64,000 nucleotides of DNA from positions 419,898 through 483,897 of the forward strand of contig NZ_LMEH01000001.1 of assembly GCF_001425325.1 (NCBI RefSeq), in the 5' to 3' direction. This document shows positions 30,977 through 50,495 of the stretch, in pieces (the first letter of the stretch is position 1; the number at the start of each line of letters is the position of its first letter). The DNA is from Leifsonia sp. Root1293 (lineage in GTDB: Bacteria > Actinomycetota > Actinomycetes > Actinomycetales > Microbacteriaceae). The notes under the pieces were generated by a model. It was not told where the DNA came from. It ran no database searches and saw only the letters and a program-made list of their open reading frames with translations. The translations under genes were made by a program, and so were the position numbers.

Positions 30977-30994
30977 AGCTAGGAACCTGAACCA

Positions 30995-31793: not shown

Positions 31794-31970
31794 GAACGTG
31801 ACTTCGCCAGTCGGACGGGTAGCAGTACGAAGAGTCGCCCACGGCGAGGAATCATCTAATGGTTTCGCGGGGCAGGGCCATTGGCGCGAAAGTGCGAGCG
31901 TTAGCGACAGCGGGGAGGGGGAATGCATCGTAGGGCGGGCGCTTCGACGCCAACCATCGAAGCTTAGAGA

Positions 31971-31976
31971 TACGAT
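31971..31976 (+). promoter_or_regulatory. -10 box TACGAT, leaderless promoter
   Basis: TACGAT ends 6 nt before the GTG at 31983. Confidence 0.5.
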
Positions 31977-31982
31977 CTCCGC

Positions 31983-33757: not shown

Positions 33758-33766
33758 CCTTGGCAG

Positions 33767-34414
33767 GTGATCCAGCAGCGGGTGTTCGTTGATGCCGACG
33801 TCTTGTACTCCGCGTGCCTTCGAAACTGGCTGTTTCAGCTCCGTGTCTCTACGGGCTCGATGTTTCTGCTGTACACAAGCGAAGATGTGCTCGCCGAATT
33901 GCTCTCGAAGCTGAGAGACAACAATCCCCGCTGGGATGGCGGGAAGATCTCGCGCATCCGGGCAACAATAACTGAAGTCTTCGACGAGATCGTCCAGGAC
34001 TTCGACGGATCGATCGACTATCAAGGTGAGGATCCAGACGACTTTCACGTGCACGCAGCCACGGTCGCTGCGAAGGCTGACATTCTCGTGACCTGTGACA
34101 AGCTTCTGCTGAACCAGCCCAACGCAGACAAGCTGAGCTATGAGGCATTCCATCCAGACGACTTCTTTGTGCTCGTAAACGATTCGGCACCGCTAAACGT
34201 TCGGGCGGCCACAATGGACCAGCTCCGCTTCTACGTGGGAAAGTTCGGCGAAAAGAATAGTGGTCTAGTGGATGCGCTAATCGTCGCGAAGACCCCGCAG
34301 TTCGCGGACGTAGTTCGGACGCATCTCATCGATTTGTCTGGTGCTCTGTCGAGGATCGACCGCCGCAAGCTCCACAAGTATGAGCGCCTTGCGCTCGAGG
34401 TGGAGTCGCGGTAG
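33767..34414 (+). CDS. PIN-domain toxin (VapC-like ribonuclease)
   Basis: 215-aa protein with a PIN-fold nuclease domain over the first 130 residues or so. The acidic metal-binding set is present: VFVDADVLYSA (Asp near 8-10), DVLAELLSKL (Glu near 46), DPDDFHVHAAT (Asp near 90) and ADILVTCDK (Asp near 111). VapC enzymes cleave tRNA or rRNA once freed from antitoxin. It is longer than a classical VapC (about 130 aa); the extra C-terminal 80 residues are helical and unassigned. It starts with GTG 9 bp behind the HTH antitoxin gene, so the two form one operon. Confidence 0.85.
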   Translation: MIQQRVFVDADVLYSACLRNWLFQLRVSTGSMFLLYTSEDVLAELLSKLRDNNPRWDGGKISRIRATITEVFDEIVQDFDGSIDYQGEDPDDFHVHAATVAAKADILVTCDKLLLNQPNADKLSYEAFHPDDFFVLVNDSAPLNVRAATMDQLRFYVGKFGEKNSGLVDALIVAKTPQFADVVRTHLIDLSGALSRIDRRKLHKYERLALEVESR

Positions 34415-34648
34415 GCGAATCAAGTGGCAGTCATTTCGTCGTCCGGAAGTAATCAGGTGTCGGGCGAGAGGCTGGAACTAATGAGTCGCACCCGCAATTT
34501 GATTGTCCGGCCTCACGACGGCTACGGATGGCACGCCAACCGACCACCAACAATCCAGGTGGCTGCGATCAGGAATGGCCCGTACACCCAGCCACGCATC
34601 CGCGCGATTCGAGCACTCCCCGCTAGAGTCTTCGCCGGCAGCTCTCGG

Positions 34649-35299
34649 CTAAGTCGTGGAGTCCTTCTTGGCGTCGTCGACCCGGGCCGTCGGCGCGACC
34701 CATGACCGGCCCGGTGGAGTCCACCCCAGCTCAACGATCGCACCCTTGAGGGCGTCCGCGTCGATCGTTTGCACTGGTACCGTTTCCGGGTGCTGCTGGA
34801 TCCAACGCGATTCCGCGACTCGGCCGACCTGGAGGATCGTTTCGAGGGCGAACCCGTAGGCGAGAGCAAGCGGTTGGCCGCCCGGCATGAAGCCGAGTAC
34901 AAGGAACCCGACGGCGAAGATATACCGCAGGTTTTCCCGGCCGGGCGAAGACAGCGGATTGACGGTTAACGCGAGCCGCAGCGATCCGTTGCCCGCCCAT
35001 ATCAGGTTGAGGACGACCTCCGGATGGTCCAGGAGCTGGGCGACCACCTTGAGGTCATCCAGGTTTTCCACGCTCTCGAGTACGTCGCGCTCCAACACGG
35101 CGAGCTGCGCAGCGTCGATGGTGAGTTGAAGCGCTTGCAGGACCGCCATCTGTTGACGCAGCCGAGACCCGCGGATGTGCACTTCTAGGACGTACACACC
35201 GTTCAGGTCGTGCCGCTCGAGGTCCCCCATCTCCTCCATGAAAGGCTGAACAGCGAGCGCAAGTCGTGCTGCATCCGCGGCGTACGCGAGCGAAGTCAT
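34649..35299 (-). CDS. Hypothetical protein with one membrane segment
   Basis: 216-aa protein of unknown function, transcribed divergently from the gene at 35606. A helical first half (residues 1-110: AADAARLALAVQPFMEEMGD, LTIDAAQLAVLERDVLESVE) is followed by a hydrophobic stretch near 128-152 (YIFAVGFLVLGFMPGGQPLA) and a short charged tail ending VDDAKKDSTT. The minus-strand -10 box TAGCGT lies 6 nt before the ATG, giving a leaderless transcript. Its helical N-terminus and island position leave open a sensor or effector role, which is speculation. Confidence 0.65.
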   Translation of the reverse strand: MTSLAYAADAARLALAVQPFMEEMGDLERHDLNGVYVLEVHIRGSRLRQQMAVLQALQLTIDAAQLAVLERDVLESVENLDDLKVVAQLLDHPEVVLNLIWAGNGSLRLALTVNPLSSPGRENLRYIFAVGFLVLGFMPGGQPLALAYGFALETILQVGRVAESRWIQQHPETVPVQTIDADALKGAIVELGWTPPGRSWVAPTARVDDAKKDSTT

Positions 35300-35605
35300 G
35301 GCCGCACGCTACACCACGTCGAGACGCATGGATCCTATGGACGTTCCAGAGAAGAGTGGGTCCATTCGCTGTGGGTGCCCGCCAGGGTTTGGCTCTGGAG
35401 CGTGGCTGATGCCCACGCGCTCCGGCACGGACTGGTTCGAAGGAGCGGAACCAGCAAGGTCCAGTTGCACTGCCAGCTCCTCCGGCCGACTCGGGCCAGC
35501 CCCTTCCCGCCTTCCATTAAGGCGCACAGTCTTGATCCGCGACGGCTACCCGTAGGTTGTGGACAAGAGAGCCGGGTCGGCGGTAGAAGCAACTAGCCTC
35601 GCGGC
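35300..35605. promoter_or_regulatory. Divergent intergenic region with two leaderless promoters
   Basis: On the minus strand TAGCGT (35311-35306) is followed by GCGGCC and the ATG of the 216-aa gene. On the plus strand TAGCCT (35594-35599) is followed by TCGCGGC-type spacing (6 nt) and the ATG at 35606. The roughly 300 bp between hold no supportable gene. Confidence 0.5.
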
Positions 35606-36286
35606 ATGGCCATCCCAGAACCCCCGGCAGGATTTGATACCGCAGTTCGCGCTGTCTTGTCGACGATCCCCTACTTTGGTGGTGCGATCGAGATTGTCTA
35701 CACCGATGTGCGTGATCGTAGAGCGGAGAAGGCGGCGGAGTTGGTTGCAGTGGTTCAACAAGCCGTAGGGGAGCAAACGTTCCTGGAGCGGTTGAGCACC
35801 GACCCCCGCCTCGAGCGCGTCTTCGTCGACGCAGTCGAATCTGCGGTGCGGACAAGTATTCGCGCTAAGCGGCGTGTACTTGCGGGCGCTGTTGTGAATG
35901 CGGCTAGGGACTCCGGCCAGATCGATCAGAGCGAACTCATTCTCGATGCACTTGCAAGTCTTGAGGTTCAACACGTCCGCGCTCTTGCACGGTTGTCGGA
36001 CGAGTGGGATGCGGTCGTTGCAGTCGCCGCGCGAGCTCCGAACAGTGACCGTCCATCAGGGTGGGGAACTAGCGCGGTCTGGAGAGCTCTACCCGAGCCG
36101 ATTAGGGCGGCTCTTGTTCGAACAGGGACCGCTAAGCCGTCGCCAACCGCGTACGGTGCCACTATCGAGCCGCGTCGGAACGAAGGAATCACGGACTTCG
36201 GCCTTGACGTCGTGGCGCGACTGCGTGTTGAGGGATGGGACGCCGAGGCCGTTGCCAACGGCTGGAACATGAAAGTTGGGACATGA
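35606..36286 (+). CDS. Hypothetical protein, island family A (copy 2)
   Basis: 226-aa protein related to the one at 31983-32657. Shared pattern: weakly hydrophobic start (STIPYFGGAIEIVYTD), RDRRAEKAAELVAVVQQAVG, a DP-containing turn, LILDALASLEVQHVRALARL near residues 111-130, and a winged-helix-like end ITDFGLDVVARL. Function is unknown; a DNA-binding or protein-interaction C-terminus is an inference from the last 40 residues. Leaderless ATG with TAGCCT 6 nt upstream. It is divergent from the 216-aa gene, so the two may share regulation. Confidence 0.75.
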   Translation: MAIPEPPAGFDTAVRAVLSTIPYFGGAIEIVYTDVRDRRAEKAAELVAVVQQAVGEQTFLERLSTDPRLERVFVDAVESAVRTSIRAKRRVLAGAVVNAARDSGQIDQSELILDALASLEVQHVRALARLSDEWDAVVAVAARAPNSDRPSGWGTSAVWRALPEPIRAALVRTGTAKPSPTAYGATIEPRRNEGITDFGLDVVARLRVEGWDAEAVANGWNMKVGT

Positions 36287-38918: not shown

Positions 38919-41552
38919 ATGCACATGACAGGGCCCGTCAGGCCCGCGATCCGCACACCCGATCAGCGGATCCGGGTGTTCGTGAGCTCGACGCTTCGGG
39001 AACTCGAGGATGAGCGGCGCGCTGTGCGGAGCGCCATCGAGCGGCTTCGCCTCGCGCCGGTGATGTTCGAACTGGGGGCGCGGCCGCATCCGCCGCGGGC
39101 CCTGTACCGCGCGTATCTCGCGCAGTCCGACATCTTCGTCGGCATCTACGGCGACAGCTACGGCTGGGTCGCTCCCGACGAAGAGGTGTCGGGCCTGGAG
39201 GACGAGTACAACCTCGCTGCAGCGTCGATGCCGAAGCTGATCTACATCAGGGCGTCGACGCAGCGCGATGAGCGCCTCGAGCGTCTGATCGACCGCATCC
39301 GTTCCGATGACACCGCCGCGTACCTCCCGTTCGAGAATGCGATCGAGCTGGAAGATCAGGTGGCCGGTGACCTCGCGTCGCTGCTCGCAGAGAGATTCGA
39401 CCAGTCCCGATTCGCCGATGACAGCGAATTCGCCACCGCCACGCCATCGGCCATCGAGAAGATCCCCGTTGCCTATACCGTCACCCTCGGTCGCGAGGGC
39501 GATATCGAACGCCTGCGCGAGCTGTTGCGTCAGGGTGAGAGCAGGGTCGTCAGCCTGATCGGACCGGGCGGCATCGGCAAGAGCAGGCTCGCGATCGAGA
39601 CGGCGCGCGCGGCCGAAGACCTCTTCCCTGACGGCGTGTACTTCGCGCTCCTCGAGGGCGTCCATGAGCCCGGACTGCTCATACCCGCCATCGCATACAC
39701 GCTCGGCATCCGCGACAACGGCGAAGCCGCCATCGAGGAGCGCATCGCCCACGCCCTTGCCGGACGGCGCGTGCTCATCGTCCTCGATAACTTCGAGCAG
39801 ATCGTGGATGCGGCCCCCGTGCTGGTCGGTCTCTACGCGGCGGCGCCACAGGCGACGTTCCTGGTGACCAGCCGCATCGTGCTGCGGATCCGCGGCGAGC
39901 AGGTCTACGAGGTCGCCGCGCTGCCGACTCCCGAGGGCGACGGCGTTGCCACCCTCGACCGTGCTCTCCGCTCTCCGGCCTGCATGCTCTTCGTCGACCG
40001 AGCGACGGCCGTGAAGCCCGCCTTCGAGATCACGACGGAGAACGCGAAGGACATCGCCGACATCTGCCGACGCCTCGAGGGCCTGCCGCTCGCCATCGAA
40101 CTCGCCGCGGCGAAGACCAGGATGTTGACCCCTCACGGCATAGCGCAGCGTCTCGAGCGAAGCCTGCCGTTGCTCACCGCGTCGGTTCGTGACATGCCCG
40201 AACGGCACAGCACCATGCGCGCGACCATCGAGTGGAGCGTGAGCCTGCTCCCCGACGCTCACAGGGCACTCCTCCTCGACCTCGGGGTGTTCGCCACCCG
40301 CTTCACCCTCGAGGCCGTGGAAGCGCTGGGCGACGGTCGCGCGTGGGACGGGACGGCGCTCGACAGCCTCGCGGCGCTCGTCGACGCGTCTCTCGTGAAG
40401 CAGACCGAGATCGATGGTCGGATGGCCTTCTCCCTGCTGGCGCTCGTGCGCGAGTACGCCGTGGAACAGTTGAAGATCACGGGTGATGCCACTCCCATGC
40501 GCGCGGCGCACGCCGACTACTACCGGGATCTCGTCGCTCGCACCGCGCCACACCTGCGGGGCAGCCAGCAGGCGGAGGCCGTCGCGCAGCTCGGCCTGGA
40601 GCTGCCCAACCTGCGCGCCGCCGTGCGGCACCTCATCTACACGGACCGTCTCGACGACGCCGGCGACTTCGCGTGGAACCTGCTTATCTACTGGTGGATC
40701 GCCGGATTCTTCGCCGAGGTTCGGGTCTGGATGCTCGAGCTCCTGGGCAAGGAGCTGCCGATCACCCAGCACACCAGGGCGGTCGCCTGGTTCCTGGCCC
40801 TGTGGGGCGAGATGTGGCACCGGCCATCCGACGGGGTGGTGGCCGGCCTCGCCGAATGCATGCGGTTGTTCAGCGAGAGCGGAGACGAGGATGCCGCGGC
40901 CATGGCCCTCGCCGCGCGGGCGACGGCACGGCTCCAGTTGCCGACGCCCGATGTGAGGAAGGCCGGACGGGAGCTGGCGGACGCCGCCGAGCGTCAGCGC
41001 GCGGTGGGGAACACCTGGGCTGAAGCGATCACGGAGGTGTCCAGGGGGCGCCTGGCGTGGTTGCTCGGTTCCCCCGAGGATGCGTTGACGCGATTCACCC
41101 GGGCCGCCGAGCTTGCCGAGTCGAGTGGGGACCTCTTCACCGCTTCGGTTGCCGGCAACCACCAAGCGCGGCTGCTGCTCGTGCGTGGCAACGTGGATGC
41201 CGCCGAAGACGCGTGCGTGCGCACCCTGATGGTCTCGATCCGCCTGCACCACGAGGAGGGCATCGCGTACGGGCTCGAAGGTCTCTGCGCCGTCGCGGCT
41301 GCGCGCGGAGACGGAGAGCGCGCGGGTGCGCTCTCAGCCGCTGCAGCGGTCATCCGTCACCGCATCGGTGTCTTCGACGCTGAAGCCTTCCGGGTGCACA
41401 CCCCGCAACTGGATGCTGCCCGCGAAGCGGATCCCGACGCGGTCGCCGCAGGGGTGCGCCGCGGCGCCGACCTCACGGTCGGGGAAGCCGTTGCGCTCGC
41501 GCTTCCGCAGTCCGAGATGGCGGGCCTGCGCCGGTCGCTCGCGGAGTGGTGA
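38919..41552 (+). CDS. DUF4062-NB-ARC STAND ATPase with TPR-like C-terminus
   Basis: 877-aa signal-transduction ATPase. DUF4062 (about residues 18-105: IRVFVSSTLRELEDERRAV, SDIFVGIYGDSYGW) is fused to an NB-ARC-type switch. The P-loop is LIGPGGIGKSRLAIETA near 212, Walker B is VLIVLDNFEQIV near 286, and GLPLAIELAAAKTRML near 390 is the GxP-type hinge. The winged helix lies at about 450-520, and the remaining 350 residues are TPR-like helices for ligand sensing. Such STAND proteins act as transcription regulators or defence sensors. DUF4062 is TIR-like in fold by published prediction, so NAD or protein interaction is possible. The start is ATG 38919 or 38925. Confidence 0.85.
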   Translation: MHMTGPVRPAIRTPDQRIRVFVSSTLRELEDERRAVRSAIERLRLAPVMFELGARPHPPRALYRAYLAQSDIFVGIYGDSYGWVAPDEEVSGLEDEYNLAAASMPKLIYIRASTQRDERLERLIDRIRSDDTAAYLPFENAIELEDQVAGDLASLLAERFDQSRFADDSEFATATPSAIEKIPVAYTVTLGREGDIERLRELLRQGESRVVSLIGPGGIGKSRLAIETARAAEDLFPDGVYFALLEGVHEPGLLIPAIAYTLGIRDNGEAAIEERIAHALAGRRVLIVLDNFEQIVDAAPVLVGLYAAAPQATFLVTSRIVLRIRGEQVYEVAALPTPEGDGVATLDRALRSPACMLFVDRATAVKPAFEITTENAKDIADICRRLEGLPLAIELAAAKTRMLTPHGIAQRLERSLPLLTASVRDMPERHSTMRATIEWSVSLLPDAHRALLLDLGVFATRFTLEAVEALGDGRAWDGTALDSLAALVDASLVKQTEIDGRMAFSLLALVREYAVEQLKITGDATPMRAAHADYYRDLVARTAPHLRGSQQAEAVAQLGLELPNLRAAVRHLIYTDRLDDAGDFAWNLLIYWWIAGFFAEVRVWMLELLGKELPITQHTRAVAWFLALWGEMWHRPSDGVVAGLAECMRLFSESGDEDAAAMALAARATARLQLPTPDVRKAGRELADAAERQRAVGNTWAEAITEVSRGRLAWLLGSPEDALTRFTRAAELAESSGDLFTASVAGNHQARLLLVRGNVDAAEDACVRTLMVSIRLHHEEGIAYGLEGLCAVAAARGDGERAGALSAAAAVIRHRIGVFDAEAFRVHTPQLDAAREADPDAVAAGVRRGADLTVGEAVALALPQSEMAGLRRSLAEW

Positions 41553-41574: not shown

Positions 41575-41614
41575 GTCAAGCCCCTCCCTCCCGCATTTCT
41601 CGCGGCCTTACCGT
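41575..41614 (+). promoter_or_regulatory. GTCAAGCCCC promoter, copy for the 39-aa gene
   Basis: GTCAAGCCCC at 41575-41584 and -10 box TACCGT at 41609-41614, with 28 nt between GTCAAG and the -10. No TTGACA-like -35 lies at 17 nt, which suggests an activator site rather than a -35. Member of a family of seven in this window. Confidence 0.55.
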
Positions 41615-41658
41615 GGTGACCTGCTCGACGATGGCGTCGGCAGGGAGGGGGCGCGGAC

Positions 41659-41778
41659 ATGCTGAGCACTCAGCCGAGATATGGGGAGATCTCCGAGATG
41701 GAGACACTGACCGAGGACAACTTCTTTCCGGAGTTCGATGACGTCGACTACGAGGATGAGAACCCGATAGACGTCTAG
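41659..41778 (+). CDS. Small acidic protein
   Basis: 39-aa protein (begins MLSTQPRYGEIS, core LTEDNFFPEFDDVDYEDEN), strongly acidic and soluble. Support comes from an excellent Shine-Dalgarno run (GGGAGGGGG, about 9 nt upstream) and a GTCAAGCCCC-type promoter 45 bp upstream of the start codon. I recognise no family. The acidic surface and stress-like promoter context suggest a regulatory or protective micropeptide, which is only an inference. Confidence 0.55.
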   Translation: MLSTQPRYGEISEMETLTEDNFFPEFDDVDYEDENPIDV

Positions 41779-41935
41779 CAGGTGTCCCGCTGCGGCGGTC
41801 ACCGCATCATCTCCCTCTCGTCGTGGTCGCAGATGACAGAGGGATGTCCGGATCAGCTTCCGGACCGCGCGGCTCTTCGTTCCCCCGGGGAGCCGCGCCC
41901 CACATGCTCAGCGATGGAGCCCGAACCCCGCTGAG

Positions 41936-41971
41936 ACGGTGGCTCCCGGGCCGAATACCGGGAGCCACCGT
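41936..41971. terminator. Long perfect hairpin between convergent small genes
   Basis: ACGGTGGCTCCCGG (41936-41949) pairs perfectly with CCGGGAGCCACCGT (41958-41971) across an 8-nt loop. It lies 10 bp past the stop of the minus-strand 71-aa gene, so it probably ends that transcript. No T-run on either side. Confidence 0.65.
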
Positions 41972-41980
41972 TGGCCCAGG

Positions 41981-42196
41981 TCAGGCAGTGTCGCCCGTGT
42001 CGCCCGCGGCCTGGTCGTCGTCCGGCAACGGCGTCGTGTCGCCGGCGATGCCGACGCCCTCACCGTCTCTGGTGACGCTGCCCGTCGAACTGTGCTTCGC
42101 GATCTCGTCGTCGTTCGGCTCGGTCACCGGAAGGTTCTTGCGATCGCCGTCCCGGCTGTCACCGGGGGAGATGTCGCCGGTCGAGATGTTCGTCAT
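41981..42196 (-). CDS. Small hydrophilic hypothetical protein
   Basis: 71-aa protein (begins MTNISTGDISPGDSRDGDR, ends AAGDTGDTA) rich in Gly, Asp, Thr and Ser, predicted disordered. The ATG at 42196 follows GAAAGGAGCAGAAC, an excellent Shine-Dalgarno sequence. Longer in-frame versions from upstream are rejected because of this signal. Composition is of the hydrophilin type often linked to desiccation or stress, but no family is recognised. A long hairpin follows the stop. Confidence 0.68.
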   Translation of the reverse strand: MTNISTGDISPGDSRDGDRKNLPVTEPNDDEIAKHSSTGSVTRDGEGVGIAGDTTPLPDDDQAAGDTGDTA

Positions 42197-42246
42197 GTTC
42201 TGCTCCTTTCGCGGGTTCGGACTCCAAACTTCCATGCGCCCAACGG

Positions 42247-42498
42247 ATGCCACAGGGCATTGACATCGATCTCGTCTCACCGGAGCAGGCCGATGCCCTC
42301 CCTGCGTCATTGCCGGTCGAACCGCTCGGCGTAGAGTCGGCGCGCCTCGTCAAGGGCCTCATCCGCTATCTCGTCGACAACAGCGACTACGACGTCGGAC
42401 AGGTGCTGGAACATGGCGGTCACTCGGCGTCGACGGCGCTCTTCTCGTGCGGCGCCCCGACGGGTTTCGACTCAGAGGAGCCGCGCTGGCGAAGGTAG
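42247..42498 (+). CDS. Possible small hypothetical protein, antisense overlap with DUF6766 gene
   Basis: 83-codon frame with natural composition in its first 58 codons (IDIDLVSPEQADALPASLPV, VKGLIRYLVDNSDYDVG) and G/C-rich third positions. The last 25 codons are antisense to the end of the DUF6766 gene. No good Shine-Dalgarno sequence is seen. It is the only frame that explains the 220 bp between the 71-aa gene and DUF6766. Divergent from the 71-aa gene. Confidence 0.4.
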   Translation: MPQGIDIDLVSPEQADALPASLPVEPLGVESARLVKGLIRYLVDNSDYDVGQVLEHGGHSASTALFSCGAPTGFDSEEPRWRR

Positions 42499-43100
42499 AT
42501 CGACAGGGCGACCATGCTGCCGACGGCGAGGAACTCGGACTGCCAGTTCTGGAGAGTCCGGTTCCAGAAGTCCGCACCGACGATGTACTGCATCCAGTCG
42601 AGCGTCGGTTGTCCGTGTTCCACCTGCTCCTGGTTGAAGACGACCACACCAGCCACCGATTGCACCCACCACGACAGGACGAAGATGACTCCCATGGTGA
42701 TCAGCAGCGAGTTGGAGTAGATCACCTGCCGCAATCCGCCGACCGCAGCCCATCGAGGTGAATCAGCGTGGGCGTGGGGGCCGACCAACTGCTCGTCATC
42801 GCTGCCGACACCTTCGTCGCCCGGCCTCTTGGACTCGGGGCTGCCCTTCTGCACGAGCCAGATCGTCGCGAGGATGAAGAGGAAGAACTGGAGGTACTCC
42901 GATTGCCAGTTCTCCGCCACGTCGACGACGAAGTCCGACGAGGTGATGAACTGTCCGTATGTGACGGTGGCGCTTCCATGGGAGAGCTGGTCCTCGTTGT
43001 ACGCGGCGAGCCCGGCGAACGACTGGCCGACAAGCGCGAGGAGGAAGATCGCCGCGAAGAAGAGGCTGAGGGTGTGTTCCTTGACCTTGTGCATCATCAT
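42420..43100 (-). CDS. DUF6766 family membrane protein
   Basis: 226-aa integral membrane protein built of two homologous halves. Each half has two helices: SLFFAAIFLLALVGQSFAG with ENWQSEYLQFFLFILATIWL, and LLITMGVIFVLSWWVQSVAG with NWQSEFLAVGSMVALSIYL. Each half ends in a soluble (R/K)GSPESK or RGSSESK motif, the family hallmark. Function is unknown; homologues are common in bacteria near stress genes. The start ATG overlaps the stop of the 27-aa gene (ATGA), so translation is coupled. It belongs to the operon driven by a GTCAAGCCCC promoter. Confidence 0.85.
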   Translation of the reverse strand: MMMHKVKEHTLSLFFAAIFLLALVGQSFAGLAAYNEDQLSHGSATVTYGQFITSSDFVVDVAENWQSEYLQFFLFILATIWLVQKGSPESKRPGDEGVGSDDEQLVGPHAHADSPRWAAVGGLRQVIYSNSLLITMGVIFVLSWWVQSVAGVVVFNQEQVEHGQPTLDWMQYIVGADFWNRTLQNWQSEFLAVGSMVALSIYLRQRGSSESKPVGAPHEKSAVDAE

Positions 43101-43180
43101 CGCCCCGAGAACGCGATGACGAACATGTAGGCCAGCCCGCCGGCGATCAACAGCAGCCAGCCGCTGAAGACGACTTTCAT
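43097..43180 (-). CDS. 27-aa single-helix membrane peptide coupled to DUF6766
   Basis: Begins MKVVFSGWLLLIAGG, contains LAYMFVIAF and ends SGR; essentially one transmembrane helix. Its TGA overlaps the DUF6766 ATG by 4 bp. AGAGGT lies about 10 nt upstream of its ATG, and a GTCAAGCCCC promoter sits 46 bp upstream. The size and hydrophobicity fit a small subunit or stabiliser of the DUF6766 protein. Too short for most gene finders. Confidence 0.65.
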   Translation of the reverse strand: MKVVFSGWLLLIAGGLAYMFVIAFSGR

Positions 43181-43225
43181 CTCACACGACCTCTCAAACC
43201 GATTGCGGCACGTCTGTGCGATTCG

Positions 43226-43264
43226 AGAGTAGATGCACAGAACCCCCGATCACAGGGGCTTGAC
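43226..43264 (-). promoter_or_regulatory. GTCAAGCCCC promoter of the DUF6766 operon
   Basis: On the minus strand GTCAAGCCCC spans 43264-43255 and the -10 box TACTCT spans 43231-43226, with 27 nt between GTCAAG and the -10. Confidence 0.6.
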
Positions 43265-43295
43265 GTGTCGACGCATCCGTCTCCCAGATGGCAGC

Positions 43296-43550
43296 TCAGA
43301 CGGTCGCGATTGAATCGGCCGTCGGCGACGGCATCCGCCGTGACACCGTCCTGATGGCATCGCCGAAGGACTCGAACCATTGGCAGACGCCGGGCACCGG
43401 CGCCATCCACATGAGCTCATAGCCGTTCTCCACCCTCTCGAGGTAGGCGAGGAGGCAGCGAGCGTCATTTTCGGCGACTCCTCTGTCGCACAACCGCCAG
43501 GATTCCTCTGCGATGGCATCGACTCTGAGCCGTGGATTCCGTTCGATCAT
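43296..43550 (-). CDS. Hypothetical protein, 84 aa
   Basis: Soluble 84-aa protein (begins MIERNPRLRVDAIAEESW; middle LAYLERVENGYELMWMAPVP) with no recognised domain. GAAGGGGGTGG lies upstream of the ATG. A promoter of the GTCAAG family with a slightly degenerate element (GTCAAGTCC) and CACACT at the -10 position lies 24 bp before the start codon, which groups it with the neighbouring stress-like genes. Confidence 0.65.
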   Translation of the reverse strand: MIERNPRLRVDAIAEESWRLCDRGVAENDARCLLAYLERVENGYELMWMAPVPGVCQWFESFGDAIRTVSRRMPSPTADSIATV

Positions 43551-43573
43551 CTGCCACCACCCCCTTCACCATC

Positions 43574-43612
43574 CAGTGTGCGCCGGGCCGAAGAAGCTGG
43601 ATTCGGACTTGA
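43574..43612 (-). promoter_or_regulatory. GTCAAGTCC promoter variant of the 84-aa gene
   Basis: Minus-strand GTCAAGTCC spans 43612-43604 and CACACT spans 43579-43574, with 27 nt between GTCAAG and the -10. One mismatch to the element and one to TANNNT, but spacing is conserved. Confidence 0.45.
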
Positions 43613-43666
43613 CACCGCCCGGAATGAGTGGCAGAGCGGGCCGACGTGACCGCCGGAAGGAGGCGG

Positions 43667-43710
43667 CTGCGCGCGGGCGTGCTCCGGTGCGTCGAGCAGC
43701 CCGCGCGCAG
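43667..43710. terminator. Hairpin after the SDR gene
   Basis: CTGCGCGCGGGC (43667-43678) pairs perfectly with GCCCGCGCGCAG (43699-43710) over a 20-nt loop, 9 bp past the stop of the minus-strand SDR gene. No T-run. Confidence 0.6.
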
Positions 43711-43719
43711 ACATCGGCG

Positions 43720-44559
43720 CTACAGGATCGGCTTGCCCCCGGTCACGGCGATGCGCGCACCCGAGACGTAGCTGGCCTCATCGGATGCGAGCATCACGTA
43801 GGCCGGGGCGAGTTCGGCCGGCTGCGCGGGACGCCCCAAGGGAACCTGCTGTCCGAAGCTCTCCACCTTCTCCTCGGGCATGGTGGCTGGAATGAGGGGA
43901 GTCCACACGGGTCCGGGAGCCACGCTGTTGGCTCTGATGCCCTTCTCGGCGAGCAGTTGCGCAAGCGACGCGGTCATGTTCGCTATGGCGGCCTTGGTGG
44001 CTGCATACGGGAGCAGTGTCGGCGAGGGCTGGTCCGAGTTGACGGAGGAGGACCCGATGATCGACGCCCCGGGCTGGAGGTGAGGCAGCGCAGCCTTGAC
44101 CAGGTGGAAGTAGGCGCTCACGTTCGTCGCCCAGGTGTAGTCCCACTCCTCGTCGGTGACGTCTTCCAGTTTCTCGTGGTCCATCTGGAACGCGGCGTTG
44201 CTCACCAGGATGTCGAGGCCACCGAGCTCCCTCACCGTCGCGGCAACGAGCTGCCGGCACTGTGCGGGATCGGAGATGTCTCCCGGAAGCAGGAGTGCCT
44301 TGCGGCCGGCATCCTCCACGAAACGCTGCGCCTCGGCGGCATCCTCGTGCTCGTCGAGGTAGCTGATCGCGACGTCTGCACCTTCACGCGCGTAGGCGAG
44401 GGCGACGGCCTTTCCGATACCGCTGTCTCCGCCGGTGATCAATGCGACCTTGCCCTCGAGCCGGCCGGATCCGCGGTAGCTCGACTCCCCGTAATCAGGT
44501 TTCGGATCCATGGCTCGGTCTGTGCCGGGAACTGATTGTTGCTGGGACGGCTGGTTCAT
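43720..44559 (-). CDS. SDR-family oxidoreductase, general-stress type
   Basis: 279-aa short-chain dehydrogenase with a polar N-terminal extension of 35 residues (MNQPSQQQSVPGTD, YGESSYRGSGRLEGK) typical of the YghA/YdaD/YhdG-like group. The cofactor motif is ALITGGDSGIGKAVALAYA, the NAG-equivalent is LVSNAAFQ, the active-site Ser is in IIGSSSVNS, and YAATKAAI supplies Tyr and Lys. NAD(P)H-dependent reduction of an aldehyde or ketone is expected; Bacillus relatives are SigB-dependent. The ATG at 44559 follows GGAGGT. The frame stays open for 1.3 kb upstream, but that extension is antisense to other genes and is rejected. Confidence 0.9.
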   Translation of the reverse strand: MNQPSQQQSVPGTDRAMDPKPDYGESSYRGSGRLEGKVALITGGDSGIGKAVALAYAREGADVAISYLDEHEDAAEAQRFVEDAGRKALLLPGDISDPAQCRQLVAATVRELGGLDILVSNAAFQMDHEKLEDVTDEEWDYTWATNVSAYFHLVKAALPHLQPGASIIGSSSVNSDQPSPTLLPYAATKAAIANMTASLAQLLAEKGIRANSVAPGPVWTPLIPATMPEEKVESFGQQVPLGRPAQPAELAPAYVMLASDEASYVSGARIAVTGGKPIL

Positions 44560-44632
44560 GAGTGGAAACCTCCAGAGTGAATTTCGATCCGTGGACGACT
44601 CGAGTCCATCGGGTCGTGCGCGATCGCACAGC

Positions 44633-44641
44633 GGGCTTGAC
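44633..44641 (-). promoter_or_regulatory. GTCAAGCCC element upstream of the SDR gene
   Basis: The minus-strand 9-mer GTCAAGCCC lies 74 bp before the SDR start codon. No TANNNT box appears at the usual 26-28 nt, so it is a sequence match without the full promoter layout. Confidence 0.4.
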
Positions 44642-44707
44642 ATCACTTGCGGTAGGCGAATATCGGCGCTCGCCGCGAGGGCCGTGCCCGGGCCGTGGTT
44701 TCCGGAT

Positions 44708-44747
44708 GTCAAGCCCCTCCTGTGAGCGTTTCGACGGCGCCTATCGT
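44708..44747 (+). promoter_or_regulatory. GTCAAGCCCC promoter of the CBS gene
   Basis: GTCAAGCCCC at 44708-44717 and TATCGT at 44742-44747, with 28 nt between GTCAAG and the -10. Confidence 0.6.
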
Positions 44748-44794
44748 GGCGGCCACAAGGGTCACCAGAAGGGTCACGACGAAAGGAAACGACC

Positions 44795-45241
44795 ATGACT
44801 ACAGCACGCGACATCATGTCGCCCGACCCCCGCTGCATCGGTGAGAACGACACTCTTGTCGATGCCGCCCGGCTGATGTCGGAGCTCGACGTCGGCGCCC
44901 TGCCGATCTGCGGCGAAGACGAGCGGCTCAAGGGAATGCTCACCGATCGGGACATCATCGTGAAGTGCATCGCCCGTGGGGGCGACCCCGCGCAGGCCAC
45001 CGCAGGGTCCCTCGCGGAAGGCAAGCCCGTTACCATCGGGGCCGACGACGACATCCGCGAGGCACTGACCACCATGCAGGACCACCAGGTGCGCCGGCTC
45101 CCCGTCATCGATGGACATGACCTCGTCGGGATCATCAGCCAGGCGGATATCGCGCTGGCTCTGTCGGCGACGGAGACTGGCGAGACGGTCGAGTCCATCT
45201 CCGAATTACACCGGCGGGCCCTGTCGATCTCGGTCGAGTGA
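44795..45241 (+). CDS. CBS-pair (Bateman) domain protein
   Basis: 148-aa protein consisting of two CBS domains: MSPDPRCIGENDTLVDAARL, LKGMLTDRDIIVKCIA for the first, and IGADDDIREALTTMQDHQVR, LVGIISQADIALAL for the second. Stand-alone Bateman modules bind adenosyl nucleotides and report energy or redox state; in mycobacteria the hypoxic response protein HRP1 has this form. It has no catalytic domain. AAAGGA lies upstream of the ATG, preceded by a GTCAAGCCCC promoter. A DUF7882-type gene follows after 68 bp with its own -10 box (TACCCT, 45245-45250). Confidence 0.93.
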   Translation: MTTARDIMSPDPRCIGENDTLVDAARLMSELDVGALPICGEDERLKGMLTDRDIIVKCIARGGDPAQATAGSLAEGKPVTIGADDDIREALTTMQDHQVRRLPVIDGHDLVGIISQADIALALSATETGETVESISELHRRALSISVE

Positions 45242-45309
45242 GCGTACCCTGAAAGGGTCACATTTCTAACTCGTTCCCAGACCCTGAACGGAGATGATGA
45301 GGTGACGAC

Positions 45310-45657
45310 ATGGGGACTCTCACCTACGACGTAGTGAAACAGGTACATTTCGACGATCGGCTGCTCGCGCACCTGCAATTGGTCATAGCGACCAAGTTGC
45401 GCCGCGGCGAGTCGTTCAATTTCTCGTGGAAGACGGATGCGTCGGAGGGCAGCGGTCGTACGACGATCTGGCTGCATCCGGCCATTCCGCTCCTCTACGA
45501 GTTCCAGGGCAGCAGGCAGCCCGCCATCAATCGCCTGTGGCTCGACGACCTGATGACATCGGCCGACACCGTGACGGGACTCCAGGTGATCCCCGAACCG
45601 CGGGCAGACCGCGTGCGCCCGCGTCTGGAGGAGGCCGTCAGCGCCAGCGCCTTCTAG
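45310..45657 (+). CDS. DUF7882-type small protein
   Basis: 115-aa protein recognisable by MGTLTYD, VHFDDRLLAHLQLVIATKLR, ESFNFSWK, GRTTIWLHPAIPLLYEF and INRLWLDDLM. I associate this family, often several paralogues per genome, with Microbacteriaceae; its function is unknown. It is soluble with no signal peptide. The ATG at 45310 follows GAGGTGACGAC. It may be read through from the CBS gene or from TACCCT just behind that gene. Confidence 0.8.
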   Translation: MGTLTYDVVKQVHFDDRLLAHLQLVIATKLRRGESFNFSWKTDASEGSGRTTIWLHPAIPLLYEFQGSRQPAINRLWLDDLMTSADTVTGLQVIPEPRADRVRPRLEEAVSASAF

Positions 45658-45703
45658 ATCCTCGGGTCCAAACAATGCGGTACGGGGATGTGCATCGACC
45701 GAT

Positions 45704-45741
45704 GTCAAGCCCGAGTCGTCCACGTCCCGGCTGTCTAGCGT
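45704..45741 (+). promoter_or_regulatory. GTCAAGCCC promoter of the P450 gene
   Basis: GTCAAGCCC at 45704-45712 and TAGCGT at 45736-45741, with 26 nt between. The -10 ends 7 nt before the ATG at 45749, so the transcript is probably leaderless, and the upstream in-frame GTG at 45740 lies inside the -10 box. Confidence 0.6.
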
Positions 45742-45748
45742 GGAGGAG

Positions 45749-47035
45749 ATGAAGACCTCGTTCCCACGTACGGCCGGCCTCGACCATTCCCTCTCCTTCC
45801 TCGCCGACGGGTACCTGTTCGGCTCGCGCCGCTTCGCACGAAACGGGACCGATGTATTCCGGGCGCGCATCATGGGCCGCCCGGTGCTGATCGCCTACGG
45901 TGCGGATGCCGCACGCATCTTCTACGAGGGCGACCGCTTCGGGAGGGAGCGGGCCATGCCTACCTCGGTCGTGCGCCTTCTCCAGGATGAGGGAAGTGTG
46001 CAGAGCCTGGCCGGAGCGGAGCACCGCCACCGCAAGTCGCTCTTCGTCCGGCTGCTCGCCGACGATGATGCCGTTTCTCGCGTTGGTGACCTGGCTGCCG
46101 AGGAGTGGGCGTCTGCCTCGTCGGCCTGGACCGGGCCGGTGCGTCTGCAGGACGAGCTCACGGTGATCCTCACGCGGGTGGCCCTGCGGTGGGTCGGACT
46201 GGATCCCACCAGTGTCGATCGGGACGTGCAGCAGCTCGCAGGAGAACTCTCCGCGATGATCGAGAACGCCGGTCGGTTCGGTCCGCCCAACTGGGCGGCA
46301 CGAGCACGGAGGAACCACACCGAGCAGTGGGCGCGGACGGTGATCCGCAGGATGCGGAACGGTCGGCTCGCCGCTCCCGGCTCGATCCTGTCGCAGTTCG
46401 CCGACCACAGGGACGCAGACGGACAGCAGTTGTCGGTGGAGGTGGCCGCGGTAGAACTCATCAACGTCCTGCGCCCCGTCGTGGCCGTTGCGCGCTTCGT
46501 CGTCTTCGGTGTGCTCGCACTTCACCAGCATCCGGACTGGCGCCGCCGAGTGGCCGAGGATCCCCAGGACGCCGGGCACTTCGTCAACGAAGTCAGGCGC
46601 TACTACCCGTTCTTCCCGGTCGTCGGCGGCCGTGCCAGGCAGGACTTCGAGTGGCGAGGACGCACCGTCGAGACGGGCGACTGGATGATGCTCGACCTCT
46701 ACGCCACGAATCACGACGAGCGCATCTGGGACGAACCGTCACGCTTCCGTCCGCAGCGGTTCGAATCCTGGAACGGCGACCAGAACACGCTGGTACCGCA
46801 GGGCGCCGGCGACGTCGACACCGGGCATCGCTGCCCCGGAGAGCGCGCCACAATCGCCATCATGAGCGCGCTCCTGATGGCAATCGCCGACGACTCGGCG
46901 TGGACTCTGCCTTCCCAAGACCTCCGCATCTCCCTCCGTCGCTTCCCGGCACTGCCCGAAAGCGGCCTGATCATCGACTTCGCGCGCGATCCGTCAGAGT
47001 CAAGCCCCTTGAGAAGCGCTTCTCCCCGTCGTTAG
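45749..47035 (+). CDS. Cytochrome P450 of the CYP152 (fatty-acid peroxygenase) family
   Basis: 428-aa heme protein that should use H2O2 to hydroxylate or decarboxylate fatty acids. CYP152 landmarks: VLRPVVAVARFV with Arg242 (binds the carboxylate), EVRRYYPFFPVVGGRARQDF, and the heme loop PQGAGDVDTGHRCPGE with Cys362. The alpha-helix I acid-alcohol pair of ordinary P450s is replaced by Arg-Pro, as in the family. Residue 85 is Gln (VQSLAG), as I recall for BS-beta hydroxylase; the olefin-forming OleT has His85. Hydroxylase is therefore the better guess, although decarboxylation is a side activity of both. Start chosen as ATG 45749 because of the overlapping -10 box. Confidence 0.88.
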   Translation: MKTSFPRTAGLDHSLSFLADGYLFGSRRFARNGTDVFRARIMGRPVLIAYGADAARIFYEGDRFGRERAMPTSVVRLLQDEGSVQSLAGAEHRHRKSLFVRLLADDDAVSRVGDLAAEEWASASSAWTGPVRLQDELTVILTRVALRWVGLDPTSVDRDVQQLAGELSAMIENAGRFGPPNWAARARRNHTEQWARTVIRRMRNGRLAAPGSILSQFADHRDADGQQLSVEVAAVELINVLRPVVAVARFVVFGVLALHQHPDWRRRVAEDPQDAGHFVNEVRRYYPFFPVVGGRARQDFEWRGRTVETGDWMMLDLYATNHDERIWDEPSRFRPQRFESWNGDQNTLVPQGAGDVDTGHRCPGERATIAIMSALLMAIADDSAWTLPSQDLRISLRRFPALPESGLIIDFARDPSESSPLRSASPRR

Positions 47036-47038
47036 CTT
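46999..47038 (+). promoter_or_regulatory. GTCAAGCCCC promoter with LacI-type operator, sugar ABC importer
   Basis: GTCAAGCCCC at 46999-47008 and TAGCTT at 47033-47038, 28 nt apart, lie within the end of the P450 gene. Between them the perfect palindrome GAGAAGCGCTTCTC (47011-47024) has the central CG of LacI-family operators. A repressor there would block the promoter until the sugar is present. Confidence 0.6.
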
Positions 47039-47102: not shown

Positions 47103-48455
47103 ATGAGATCTCTGCGGGTTGTGGCCGTCGGATGTGCCGCCTTGTTCGTATTGAGCGGATGCTCCGCGACGTCGGCGGGGCCGGGTGACACGTCCTTCAC
47201 CGACAAGGCGACGGGCACCCTGAACGCGTGGGGCTTCGACAACGCCGACGACGTCGGCACGTCCCGGCTGGACTACGCGAAGGAGCAGCTCTCCGACGTC
47301 ACGATCAAGGTCGACGCGACGGCATTCGATGCTCAGAAGTTCACGACCCGGTCGGCGAGCGGGAACGTTCCCGACGTGGTGCAGATGGACCGCAACTTCG
47401 TGGCGACCTATGCGGCACAGGGCTTGATCCTGCCGCTCGACGAGTGCTACTCGGTGCATGACGTCGACCCAGAACAGAGGTACTACGAGTCCGTGGTGGG
47501 AGATATCACCTGGGACGACCAGGTCTGGGCCGTGCCGCAGTTCTACCAGCCGCCGGCGATCATGCTGAACACCCGTGTCATGCAGGCCGCCGGCGTCGAC
47601 CCGAGCGCCATCGACACGTCGAAGCCCGATGAACTCCTGGCGGCAGTCAAGAAGATGTACAAGGAGAGCGGCGGAGTGCCAACCCTGCTCGGCCTCGATC
47701 CCGTCGCTCCGAGTCAGGCCGGCCTGTGGCTCCTCGGCATGGGCGGAAACATCATCGGTGACGATGGCAAGCCGACCCTCGACAGCGAGGAGAACGCCCA
47801 GGCCGTCGACTTCCTCACCGAGCTGCTCGACGCCCAGGGCGGATACGCGAAGGTGAAGAGCTTCAGCGATTCCTTCGACACCTTCGGAGACCAGAACCAG
47901 TTCGTGGCCGACCAGGTCGCAGCTCAGGTCGACGCTCAGTGGTATGTCAACGTGCTGACGCCCTATGTCGGCAAGGTGCAGATCGGAGCCGTTCCGTTCA
48001 AGGACCCGGACGGCGAACCGTTCACCGTGGCGAGCGGCACCGCGTTCGTCATTCCGGCCGCCGCCAAGAACAAGGACGCCGCCTGCGCCTGGGCACTGGA
48101 GCTCACCTCGAGCGACGCCTGGGAGGCTGCCGGTGCCGCCCGCGCTCAGACCGTTGCCGACACTCCCGGAGCGATCAACACCGGACTGTTCACCGGCTCA
48201 CCGGCGGCCGACGAGTCGATCCGGGAACAGTACGTGAAGCCGAGTGGCGACGCCGGGTTCGACCAGACCATCTCCACGTTCTACGACGTTGTCGGGAACG
48301 GTAAGTCATTCGGCGCCTCCCCGGCGGGCCAGGAGATCCAGTCCGAGCTGCAGAATGCCCTGACCAGCGCGTTCCTGGGTGACAAGAGTTCGAGCGAAGC
48401 TCTCAAAGACGCTCAGGATGCCGCCATGCGGGCGTACGACCGGGTGGTGAAGTAA
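47103..48455 (+). CDS. Carbohydrate ABC transporter substrate-binding lipoprotein
   Basis: 450-aa extracytoplasmic solute-binding protein (cluster 1, MalE/UgpB type). The lipobox is VLSGCS with Cys20. The family landmarks are GTLNAWGFDN, FTTRSASGNVPDVVQMDRN, WAVPQFYQPPAIMLNTRVMQ and GTAFVIPAAAKNKDAACAWA. It feeds sugar to the convergent permease pair at 48511-50495. The start at 47103 is chosen over 47073 because of the GAGAGGAAG Shine-Dalgarno sequence and the signal peptide. The sugar is not predictable. Regulated through the palindrome at 47011. Confidence 0.93.
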   Translation: MRSLRVVAVGCAALFVLSGCSATSAGPGDTSFTDKATGTLNAWGFDNADDVGTSRLDYAKEQLSDVTIKVDATAFDAQKFTTRSASGNVPDVVQMDRNFVATYAAQGLILPLDECYSVHDVDPEQRYYESVVGDITWDDQVWAVPQFYQPPAIMLNTRVMQAAGVDPSAIDTSKPDELLAAVKKMYKESGGVPTLLGLDPVAPSQAGLWLLGMGGNIIGDDGKPTLDSEENAQAVDFLTELLDAQGGYAKVKSFSDSFDTFGDQNQFVADQVAAQVDAQWYVNVLTPYVGKVQIGAVPFKDPDGEPFTVASGTAFVIPAAAKNKDAACAWALELTSSDAWEAAGAARAQTVADTPGAINTGLFTGSPAADESIREQYVKPSGDAGFDQTISTFYDVVGNGKSFGASPAGQEIQSELQNALTSAFLGDKSSSEALKDAQDAAMRAYDRVVK

Positions 48456-48466
48456 CCGTCCGATCA

Positions 48467-48500
48467 CACGACGACGGTCGGCCAGCCGACCGTCGTCGTG
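48467..48500. terminator. Bidirectional terminator between binding protein and permease genes
   Basis: CACGACGACGGTCGG-CCAG-CCGACCGTCGTCGTG is a perfect 15-bp stem with a 4-nt loop, placed between the two convergent stops (48455 and 48511). Confidence 0.8.
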
Positions 48501-48510
48501 CTGGGCGTCG

Positions 48511-49470
48511 TCACCCCTTCAGTCCCTGGGTGGCGACGCCGTCGATGAAGTAACGCTGTCCGAAAGCGAACAGAAGCAGCATGGGCAGTGTCACGATGAG
48601 AGCGGCCACCATCACGAACTGATAATCGCCGTGGCCGCCGTTGGTCGGTGAGAACACCGACATGGCGTGGGCGATCCCGAGCGGGACGGTGAATCCCTCG
48701 ACGCTGCCGGCATTCAGGTAGATGAGTCCCTGCTGCAGGTTGTTCCAGCTCGCCTGGAACTCGAACAGGAACACGATGATGAAGGCGGGAATGGACAGGG
48801 GCATCGCGATACGGCGGAACAGACCGAAGTAGCTCGCGCCGTCGAGTCGGGCCGCCTCGAACAGGTCGCGCGGCAGTCCCATGAAGAACTGCCGCAGCAG
48901 GAAGATGTAGAACGCCGAGCCGAACAGGTTCGCCCCGAACAGCGGGATCCAGGTTCCCAGGACCCCCAGGTTCTTCCAGATGAGATATTGCGGGATCATC
49001 GTGACAGCTCCCGGCAGCATCATCGTGGCGAGCACCAGCCCGAAGAGGAGGTTGCGTCCGGGGAACCGGAAGTAAGCGAATCCGAAGGCGACGAGCGAGC
49101 TCGAGATGGCGACCAGCCCGGCAGCGAGCAGGGCGATGACGAGGCTGTTGCCGATCCAGGCCAGGAGAGGCAGCTGATCCCACACCTCGGTGTAGTTCTC
49201 CCACCGGATGGTGCGGGGGATCAGCAGATTGTCGAAGACCTGTTCACGCGGCTTGAGGCTGGCCGCCAGCAGCCAGGCGAACGGGTAGAGGAAGAGCAGT
49301 CCGAACCCGACGAGGGCGACGGTCAGGATCACCCTGCCGGCCGTCCACGGGGTGCGGTTGGCTCGGGGCTCGCGGGTGCGCCGCTCGGCGGCATCCGGAG
49401 CACCCTTCGCGGTCGAGGGGTCTGCCGCTCCCGCGGCCAGACCCGTCGCGGTCGTCACCGGCGTTGTCAT
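48511..49470 (-). CDS. Carbohydrate ABC transporter permease, MalG type
   Basis: 319-aa inner-membrane subunit with six predicted helices after a 45-residue polar N-terminus. The EAA loop that docks the ATPase is EAARLDGASYFGLFRRIAMP. ATMMLPGAVTMIPQYLIWKN and the C-terminal QRYFIDGVATQGLKG are typical MalG endings. Its ATG overlaps the stop of the MalF-type gene by 4 bp. Together with the lipoprotein it would import an oligosaccharide or sugar derivative. No ATPase gene is present nearby, so a shared MsiK-type ATPase elsewhere is implied. Confidence 0.92.
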   Translation of the reverse strand: MTTPVTTATGLAAGAADPSTAKGAPDAAERRTREPRANRTPWTAGRVILTVALVGFGLLFLYPFAWLLAASLKPREQVFDNLLIPRTIRWENYTEVWDQLPLLAWIGNSLVIALLAAGLVAISSSLVAFGFAYFRFPGRNLLFGLVLATMMLPGAVTMIPQYLIWKNLGVLGTWIPLFGANLFGSAFYIFLLRQFFMGLPRDLFEAARLDGASYFGLFRRIAMPLSIPAFIIVFLFEFQASWNNLQQGLIYLNAGSVEGFTVPLGIAHAMSVFSPTNGGHGDYQFVMVAALIVTLPMLLLFAFGQRYFIDGVATQGLKG

Positions 49471-50495
49471 GATCGGTCTCCCTGGTAGTACACGAAACGA
49501 TTGCTGAACTTCACCTGCACCAGCGTGATCACCAGAATGATCACGAAGAGCAACCAGGCCATCGCCGCAGCGAAGCCGAAGTTGAACTGACGGAACGCCT
49601 GTTGGAAGAGGTACACGCCGTAGAACAGCGATGACTCCGGCGACGCATTCGTCTGGTCGCGCCAGAACAGCAGGTACGCCTGGTCGAAGACCTGCAGTGC
49701 CGCGATCGTCAGCACGATCACGTTGAAGAAGATCGCGCCGGAGATCATCGGAACCGTGATCGAGAAGAACTGGCGGATCTTGCCGGCTCCATCCAGGGCC
49801 GCCACCTCGTACAGTTCTCCCGGCACGTTCTTGAGCGCGGCGAGGAAGATCACCATCGTTCCGCTGACCCCCCACAGCGTCATCAGCACGATCGACGGCT
49901 TCACCCACGCAGGATCGACGAGCCACTGCGGCCCCTCGATCCCGAAGATCGCGAGCCCCCTGTTGATGGCGCCGGAGTTGCCGTTGAGGAGCAGCAGGAA
50001 CACGGATGCCGTGGCGACGACCGGCGTCATCTTGGGCAGGTAGTAGACGGTTCGGAACACACCGGCCCCGCGGCCGACGCGGGCGAGGAGAACCGCGAGG
50101 AAGAGCGCGAACGAGATCTCGAGAGGAACCGCGAGGACGGCGTAGAAGAGGGTGTTGCTCAGCGCGATGCCGACCTTCGGATCCGCGAAGAGTTCCGCAT
50201 AGTTCTCGAAACCGGCGGGAGTCGCGATGTTGGTGGCGAGGTTGTAGTCACTGAAGGAGATGACCAGGCTGTAGATCATCGCGCCGAGGGTGAAGACCAG
50301 GAACCCGACGATCCACGGGCTGATGAACATCAGCCCGGCCAGAGCTTCCCGTCGGGCTGCGGTGTTCCGCCGCCGAGGCGGCCGCTCTCCGGCTGTCGGG
50401 GGCGAGCCCGTCGCCGACGCCGGTGGATTCTGGACGTCGGTGGGTCCGGTTGTCAGGGTGATGGTCGCCTTGCGGTGGCCGTTCGCAATAGCCAT
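49467..50495 (-). CDS. Carbohydrate ABC transporter permease, MalF type
   Basis: 342-aa inner-membrane subunit with six helices after a Pro/Arg-rich cytoplasmic leader of about 50 residues. The EAA loop is YEVAALDGAGKIRQFFSITV. FISPWIVGFLVFTLGAMIYS forms helix 1 and FVIILVITLVQVKFSNRFVYY the last helix (quoted here by its ends: FVIILVITLV and SNRFVYY). GAGGCG precedes the ATG. It forms the start of a two-gene minus-strand operon with the MalG-type gene. Confidence 0.92.
   Translation of the reverse strand: MAIANGHRKATITLTTGPTDVQNPPASATGSPPTAGERPPRRRNTAARREALAGLMFISPWIVGFLVFTLGAMIYSLVISFSDYNLATNIATPAGFENYAELFADPKVGIALSNTLFYAVLAVPLEISFALFLAVLLARVGRGAGVFRTVYYLPKMTPVVATASVFLLLLNGNSGAINRGLAIFGIEGPQWLVDPAWVKPSIVLMTLWGVSGTMVIFLAALKNVPGELYEVAALDGAGKIRQFFSITVPMISGAIFFNVIVLTIAALQVFDQAYLLFWRDQTNASPESSLFYGVYLFQQAFRQFNFGFAAAMAWLLFVIILVITLVQVKFSNRFVYYQGDRS

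Follow-up and report, generated by a model that had tools for sequence, protein, structure and literature searches.

A GTCAASCCC box at a set distance from the −10 element marks a putative activator-type promoter class with stress-gene character in Microbacteriaceae

The SigB and SigF regulons of Firmicutes and Actinobacteria include protective genes such as those for SDR, Mn-catalase, CsbD, Dps and PPOX proteins, and their promoters are of the GTTT...GGGTA type. The DosR (DevR) regulator of mycobacteria has class-II placed sites, one of its targets encoding a CBS protein, and the DosR site is palindromic. PafBC and SiwR, regulators of the WYL type, also serve actinobacterial stress genes from an activator site before the −10 element, placed at about −26/−24 in the accessible part of their published descriptions (PMC10693628, PMC12340889). 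Here we describe a 9-nt box, GTCAASCCC (S, G or C), in a stretch of 64,000 nt of Leifsonia sp. Root1293 (contig NZ_LMEH01000001.1, positions 419,898 to 483,897), referred to as the window, where it precedes a series of transcription units within 5.5 kb. The gene types under the box resemble those of the SigB/SigF regulons, but the promoters are of the type box-N23-25-TANNNT and the genome has no SigB/SigF-type sigma factor among its 14 Sigma70_r2 matches, which by size and sequence are SigA and 13 proteins like the extracytoplasmic function (ECF) sigma factors. Half of the DosR site is faintly similar to the box, but the box is single and asymmetric. It is not the PafBC/SiwR site, because those proteins, as far as the descriptions cited above extend, act at −26/−24, whereas the box is of another sequence and lies at about −45 to −37. 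In the part of the literature that was searched, no description of the box was recognised.

The box and the −10 element form one real promoter class, with the structure T-GTCAA(G/C)CCC-CT, 23-25 nt between the 9-mer and TANNNT, and no −35 element. Inspection covered 30 of the 36 copies of GTCAAGCCC in this genome (the remaining six came without locus). TANNNT was located at N23-25 in 12 of the 30 and at the other 28 spacings from N10 to N40 in none, and eight of these 12 sites were TANCGT, though the search used the box alone. The pattern GTCAAGCCC-N22-26-TANCGT was matched 25 times in 58 genomes, this one included, against four for the reversed control, and eight times against none in this genome. 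When 348 genomes of the family were searched, 83 of them, belonging to 35 of the 78 genera, contained 136 matches (reversed control, 37), with a clear peak in spacing (N22, 3; N23, 42; N24, 70; N25, 19; N26, 2). When the spacing was left open in 149 Microbacteriaceae genomes, 53 of 80 matches fell at N23-25 and 27 were scattered over the other 28 spacings, about one each (p ~2e-34, kinship uncorrected), while the chance expectation for the reversed control at N23-25 was ~9 of ~94. The second form, GTCAACCCC, behaved alike in 148 genomes, with 61 of 90 matches at N23-25 and 29 elsewhere (p ~2e-40; control ~31). Because both forms concentrate at N23-25 before TANCGT, the box is written GTCAASCCC. 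In 111 genomes from other families of the order, the pairing was near background, at most a trace (24 matches, 6 at N23-25, p 0.02; control ~56). All p-values are a guide only, since related genomes are non-independent; the control sums (37, ~94, ~56 and ~31) were added by hand, and match lengths in the open-spacing, other-family and GTCAACCCC searches were derived by hand from coordinates.

The bare 9-mer is not enriched in the 3.61-Mb genome (36 copies against 53 for the reversed word), and the signal appears only together with the spacing. Within the window, the 10-mer with up to two mismatches occurred 71 times against a mean of 79, which is the chance level, and therefore only near-exact copies count. 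Two clusters stand out, both in regions chosen after the fact: six of the 36 copies of GTCAAGCCC lie inside the 5.5 kb studied (Poisson p ~3e-11) and seven at C1:775-794 kb, a span of 19 kb (Poisson p ~1e-9).

The position of the matches relative to genes was classified for 133 of 134 distinct strings (the omitted one is a contig-end site), 128 at N23-25 and five at N22 or N26, using gene calls from a heuristic made for this analysis (codon-position GC and Shine-Dalgarno). Fourteen of the 128 lay within a predicted gene, and for 101 a gene on the same strand began 31-330 nt downstream; 95 were intergenic with such a start (median 81 nt), as against none of the five sites at N22/26. Leaderless genes indicate where transcription would begin. 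In 147 distinct promoters that have the box and a called gene, the start codon followed the −10 at 6 nt in 10 cases and at 7 nt in 12 (22 of 147), never at 0-5 or 8-18 nt, the rest lying from 19 nt on and one at −1. A tally of all ATG triplets, made independently of gene calls, gave 13 at offset 6, 20 at offset 7 and at most three at any other offset from 0 to 20. The same rule was found in 1531 called genes of the regions around boxes, where TANNNT preceded 122 start codons by 6 nt and 57 by 7 nt, and no more than four at each remaining gap between 0 and 19; TANCGT accounted for 30 of 163 leaderless TANNNT −10 elements without the box. TANNNT is thus the general −10, box or no box, which fits SigA. 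From the leaderless pile-up at 6-7 nt, +1 is predicted 7-8 nt after the −10, and the box would therefore occupy about −45 to −37, with its centre near −41.

A logo was made from 73 non-redundant sites aligned on the box, picked by GTCAAGCCC with TANNNT at N23-25 and drawn chiefly from the TANCGT searches. A T precedes the box and C, then T, follow it (TGTCAAGCCCCT), whereas no repeat, symmetry or second half-site was found. Nothing is conserved at the −35 position or anywhere else between the box flanks and the −10, which keeps T, A and the last T and is frequently TANCGT. These results bear on several points of the original prediction, made from the window sequence alone, which to the extent that sequence can decide withstood both of the refuting conditions attached to it. 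The absence of a −35 and the predicted start of transcription just after the −10 agree with what was foreseen. The motif proposed there is valid, but broader than stated, and the class-II placement is retained with its centre moved from about −44 to near −41. Specificity for promoters holds for the box with its spacing (the 95 of 128 against none of five above) and not for the bare motif.

We consider it probable that these are −35-less SigA promoters with a putative activator at the box, and that together they make up a general stress regulon of Microbacteriaceae. The sequences themselves speak for the promoter class, its spacing, the predicted start position, its near-restriction to the family and its recurrence before the same gene families; the recognising factor is most likely a DNA-binding, activating protein. 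As at class-II promoters, the distance of the box is fixed and puts it over or right beside the −35 position, and a missing −35 goes with a good −10. RNA polymerase with the housekeeping SigA would recognise the −10, and a sequence-specific activator on the single asymmetric box would substitute for the −35 contact, adjoining sigma region 4 and the alpha C-terminal domains. The spacer tolerance of one nucleotide either way resembles that between −35 and −10 elements, and the CGT of TANCGT is like the −10 elements of ECF promoters. With 13 ECF-like sigma factors in the genome, one of these or an unusual sigma factor might use the box itself as a −35 with a long spacer. This is very unlikely: the distance from box centre to −10 centre, about 31 nt, exceeds that of a usual −35/−10 pair by about 8 nt, the normal −35 position is not conserved, and the −10 retains the T, A and final T of the general TANNNT.

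In the window, the boxes, −10 elements and genes are arranged as follows (positions of the whole stretch).
41575..41583, plus strand: box GTCAAGCCC, N25, upstream of the 39-aa acidic micropeptide gene
41609..41614, plus strand: −10 TACCGT (TANCGT at N25)
41659..41778, plus strand: 39-aa acidic micropeptide, without Pfam match
43256..43264, minus strand: box GTCAAGCCC, N24, upstream of the DUF6766 unit
43226..43231, minus strand: −10 TACTCT of the DUF6766 unit
42420..43100, minus strand: DUF6766 membrane protein (PF20554, E 3.9e-96)
43605..43613, minus strand: variant box GTCAAGTCC, N24, upstream of the 84-aa gene
43575..43580, minus strand: weak −10 CACACT of the 84-aa gene
43296..43550, minus strand: 84-aa protein, without Pfam or NCBIfam match
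44633..44641, minus strand: box GTCAAGCCC, N24, upstream of the SDR gene
44603..44608, minus strand: poor −10-like TGGACT of the SDR gene
43720..44559, minus strand: SDR oxidoreductase (PF13561, E 4e-60; NCBIfam PRK06701-like, under cut-off)
44708..44716, plus strand: box GTCAAGCCC, N25, upstream of the CBS gene
44742..44747, plus strand: −10 TATCGT of the CBS gene
44795..45241, plus strand: two-CBS-domain protein (PF00571)
45310..45657, plus strand: DUF7882 protein (PF25355)
45704..45712, plus strand: box GTCAAGCCC, N23, upstream of the P450 gene
45736..45741, plus strand: −10 TAGCGT of the P450 gene, start codon 7 nt on (leaderless position)
45749..47035, plus strand: cytochrome P450, CYP152/CypC-like (PF00067; NCBIfam NF053744, E 1e-129, under equivalog cut-off)
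46999..47007, plus strand: box GTCAAGCCC, N25, upstream of the lipoprotein gene, within the 3' end of the P450 gene
47033..47038, plus strand: −10 TAGCTT of the lipoprotein gene, overlapping the P450 stop codon
47103..48455, plus strand: solute-binding lipoprotein (PF01547)

All seven boxes and the −10 hexamers originally listed are present in the sequence, except that CACACT, a weak element, starts at 43580 and not at 43579. The gap given as 26-28 nt is actually 22-24 nt after the 10-mer (23-25 nt after the 9-mer GTCAAGCCC), and the SDR copy, said to have no clear −10, indeed has just TGGACT at N24.

Several genes of the window are accompanied by boxed relatives elsewhere. A boxed DUF6766 gene was also found in another genus (L106, E 2.4e-91), and a boxed 75-aa protein of another genus (L127) resembles the 84-aa protein (41% identity over 39 aa). 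Relatives of the SDR and of the lipoprotein (L115, L120) carry the box in other genera, and CBS proteins lie downstream of GTCAACCCC boxes in L377 and L386. The 39-aa micropeptide is one of three small acidic proteins downstream of boxes in this genome; those of 39, 54 and 62 aa (window 41659-41778; L031:9405-9569; L032:1285-1473) share a DDVDYEDE-like stretch, and small acidic proteins likewise follow boxes in other genera (by eye; for instance L216 and L234-L236). Since a 27-aa hydrophobic open frame (window 43097-43180, minus strand) runs into the beginning of the DUF6766 gene, the latter may be the second gene of a two-gene unit.

Elsewhere in this genome, boxes were located upstream of genes for a DUF4383 protein, the two other acidic micropeptides, CinA, a 184-aa protein, a second SDR (GTCAACCCC), a baeRF protein (−10 unclear) and a thiamine pyrophosphate (TPP) enzyme (variant GTCAAGGTC), while GTCAACCCC boxes precede genes for PPOX, SRPBCC-type and FMN-reductase-like proteins and a histidine phosphatase. 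In other genomes, where one example per family was checked with Pfam, the boxed genes include those for Mn-catalase, photolyase, a Dps/ferritin-like protein, TopIB, CsbD, CBS, glucose-6-phosphate dehydrogenase, DUF6766, SDR, DUF4383 and solute-binding proteins; a TPP enzyme, also Pfam-checked, is there encoded by the second gene downstream of a boxed small one. Throughout the analysis many gene names were assigned by eye, and those with a Pfam or NCBIfam call are the tested ones. For the GTCAACCCC matches, 40 regions were examined for genes. By clustering, the SDR, 184-aa, Mn-catalase and lipoprotein families each lie directly downstream of a box in three genera.

The boxed families thus have the composition of a regulon of general protective genes, and the stress-gene character suspected at the outset is borne out in other genera. 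For Curtobacterium aetherium, a member of the same family, the accessible part of the published account (PMC12029717) reports induction by drying of Mn-catalase, Dps, cryptochrome/photolyase, Ku with ligase and CsbD, and of sugar-binding proteins with permeases. To that extent the boxed gene set matches the drying-induced set, by function alone. The regulon may be pictured as a general stress programme for stationary phase, drying, oxidation and UV, the inducing condition being our proposal.

The sequence of the box varies among lineages. Within the genus of the window, two species have GTCAACCCC before the PPOX gene and a third has GTCAAGCCC, while before the SRPBCC gene each of these two forms was found in one species. 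At the promoter of the 184-aa gene, the box reads GTCAAGGCC and GTCAAGACC at N24 in genus g3, GTCAAGTCC at N25 in Agreia and, in one Frigoribacterium, GTCAAGGCC at N23; because of these variants, drift at box position 7 is possible. In five of eight Microbacterium loci, GGCAA(C/G)CC-like words were seen by eye at a similar position, without clear TANNNT. Of the named loci of the 184-aa gene, 80 in all, those in Arthrobacter and other outside genera gave no match to the box patterns. As a separate observation made by eye, six Clavibacter loci (L290, L292, L294, L297, L300, L305) have TAGCGT before the 184-aa gene without GTCAASCCC, and a GGGCATCC word lies upstream instead.

As to the nature of the activator, two narrower forms of the SigA-plus-activator proposal were considered. 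The lone asymmetric site, the lack of a −35 and the position adjoining sigma region 4 would suit a small WhiB-like protein that partners region 4 of SigA, or a WYL protein that adapts sigma, either of which would need no more than a short asymmetric box beside the −35 position; PafBC and SiwR, in the sources available (PMC10693628, PMC12340889), act at about −26/−24 and not at −41, and we regard this form as rather unlikely. A regulator with a GerE domain (NarL/LuxR type) is brought to mind by the reverse complement of the box, GGGNCTTGAC, which evokes DosR-like half-sites, by position 7, which varies by lineage like the free position of a half-site, and by the 18 GerE matches of the genome. 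On the other hand, a second half-site is absent, so that a DosR-like palindrome was rejected on the box logo; the tolerated G to C change at position 6 would break the half-site; and the three of the 18 GerE proteins that were tested are missing from box-bearing genomes. A GerE-domain activator is on this evidence unlikely.

The three proteins were compared by their presence in box-bearing genomes. The response regulator L166 (C1:1816407-1817075), which sits among genes of stress-related appearance (by eye), turned up in 25 of 80 genomes; those that lack it include box-bearing G225, G263, G366, G189, G034 and G144. The MalT-like LuxR protein L167, encoded near a second island, was found in six of 52 genomes. 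The RcsB-like response regulator L172 gave a 1e-12 match in 46 of 54, but in box-bearing G005, G020, G021 and G325 the identity did not exceed 44% or a match was lacking. No regulator lies directly downstream of a box among the families recurring in at least three genera of the regions around boxes; two response-regulator clusters and one MarR-like cluster recur in those regions without a box. Two GAF proteins (L032:4659-6026, and L121 with an ANTAR end by eye) also recur near boxes, in three genera.

A number of points weigh against the proposal of activated SigA promoters. All three candidate regulators were rejected on the presence test, and the recurrent families gave none directly downstream of a box. 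Dimeric activators do not usually act from a lone asymmetric box, and the TANCGT form of the −10 was imposed by the collection pattern. With the spacing left open, the reversed control gave more matches over all spacings (~94) than the box (80), and because of this it is the clustering at three spacings that counts as evidence and not the total. Only a minority of the family genomes have the strict forms: the GTCAAGCCC form was found in 83 of 348, and one form or the other at N23-25 in 56 of ~149. The Mn-catalase gene of this very genome has no box, the 184-aa gene matches the box patterns at only 12 of its 80 named loci (Rathayibacter, 7/7), and no match was found among them in Curtobacterium or in Clavibacter, where TAGCGT is kept. 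Finally, activation and repression cannot be separated by sequence, and the box might be a repressor operator freed under stress that has the class-II look only; neither the fixed 23-25 nt to the −10 nor the missing −35 is required of an operator, and we judge this version very unlikely.

Some further features of the window were noted. An 877-aa DUF4062 and NB-ARC (STAND-type) protein is encoded at 38919-41552, its end lying 22 nt upstream of the first box. The DUF7882 family is represented by 23 genes in 10 genera within the regions around boxes, none of them directly downstream of a box. At 47103-50330 the solute-binding gene is opposed by two permease-like genes on the other strand (by eye); at L115 and L120 the related gene runs in the same direction as the permeases. 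The region 20001-36000 has a GC content of 0.59-0.60, compared with 0.67 before and 0.64 after it, and is possibly acquired DNA.

For the biology of the family, a tentative model can be put forward, which we hold possible though short of probable. The general stress response of Microbacteriaceae would have no dedicated sigma factor, and a family-specific activator, perhaps of a new type, would steer the housekeeping polymerase to promoters lacking a −35 via the single asymmetric box GTCAASCCC, as a one-factor replacement of SigB. The genome of the window has no SigB/SigF-type factor, yet general stress genes form a coherent set there, as they do in relatives, and the box would offer a way to learn how these genes are switched on. 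It designates the target promoters together with their predicted starts, so that the search for the regulator becomes a pull-down experiment, and offers a test case for a stress programme built without a dedicated sigma factor. The box may explain how Dps, photolyase, catalase and desiccation proteins are coordinated in drying- and UV-tolerant bacteria of soil and plant surfaces, and GTCAASCCC could serve as a marker of protective genes, for stress and drying, in many Microbacteriaceae.

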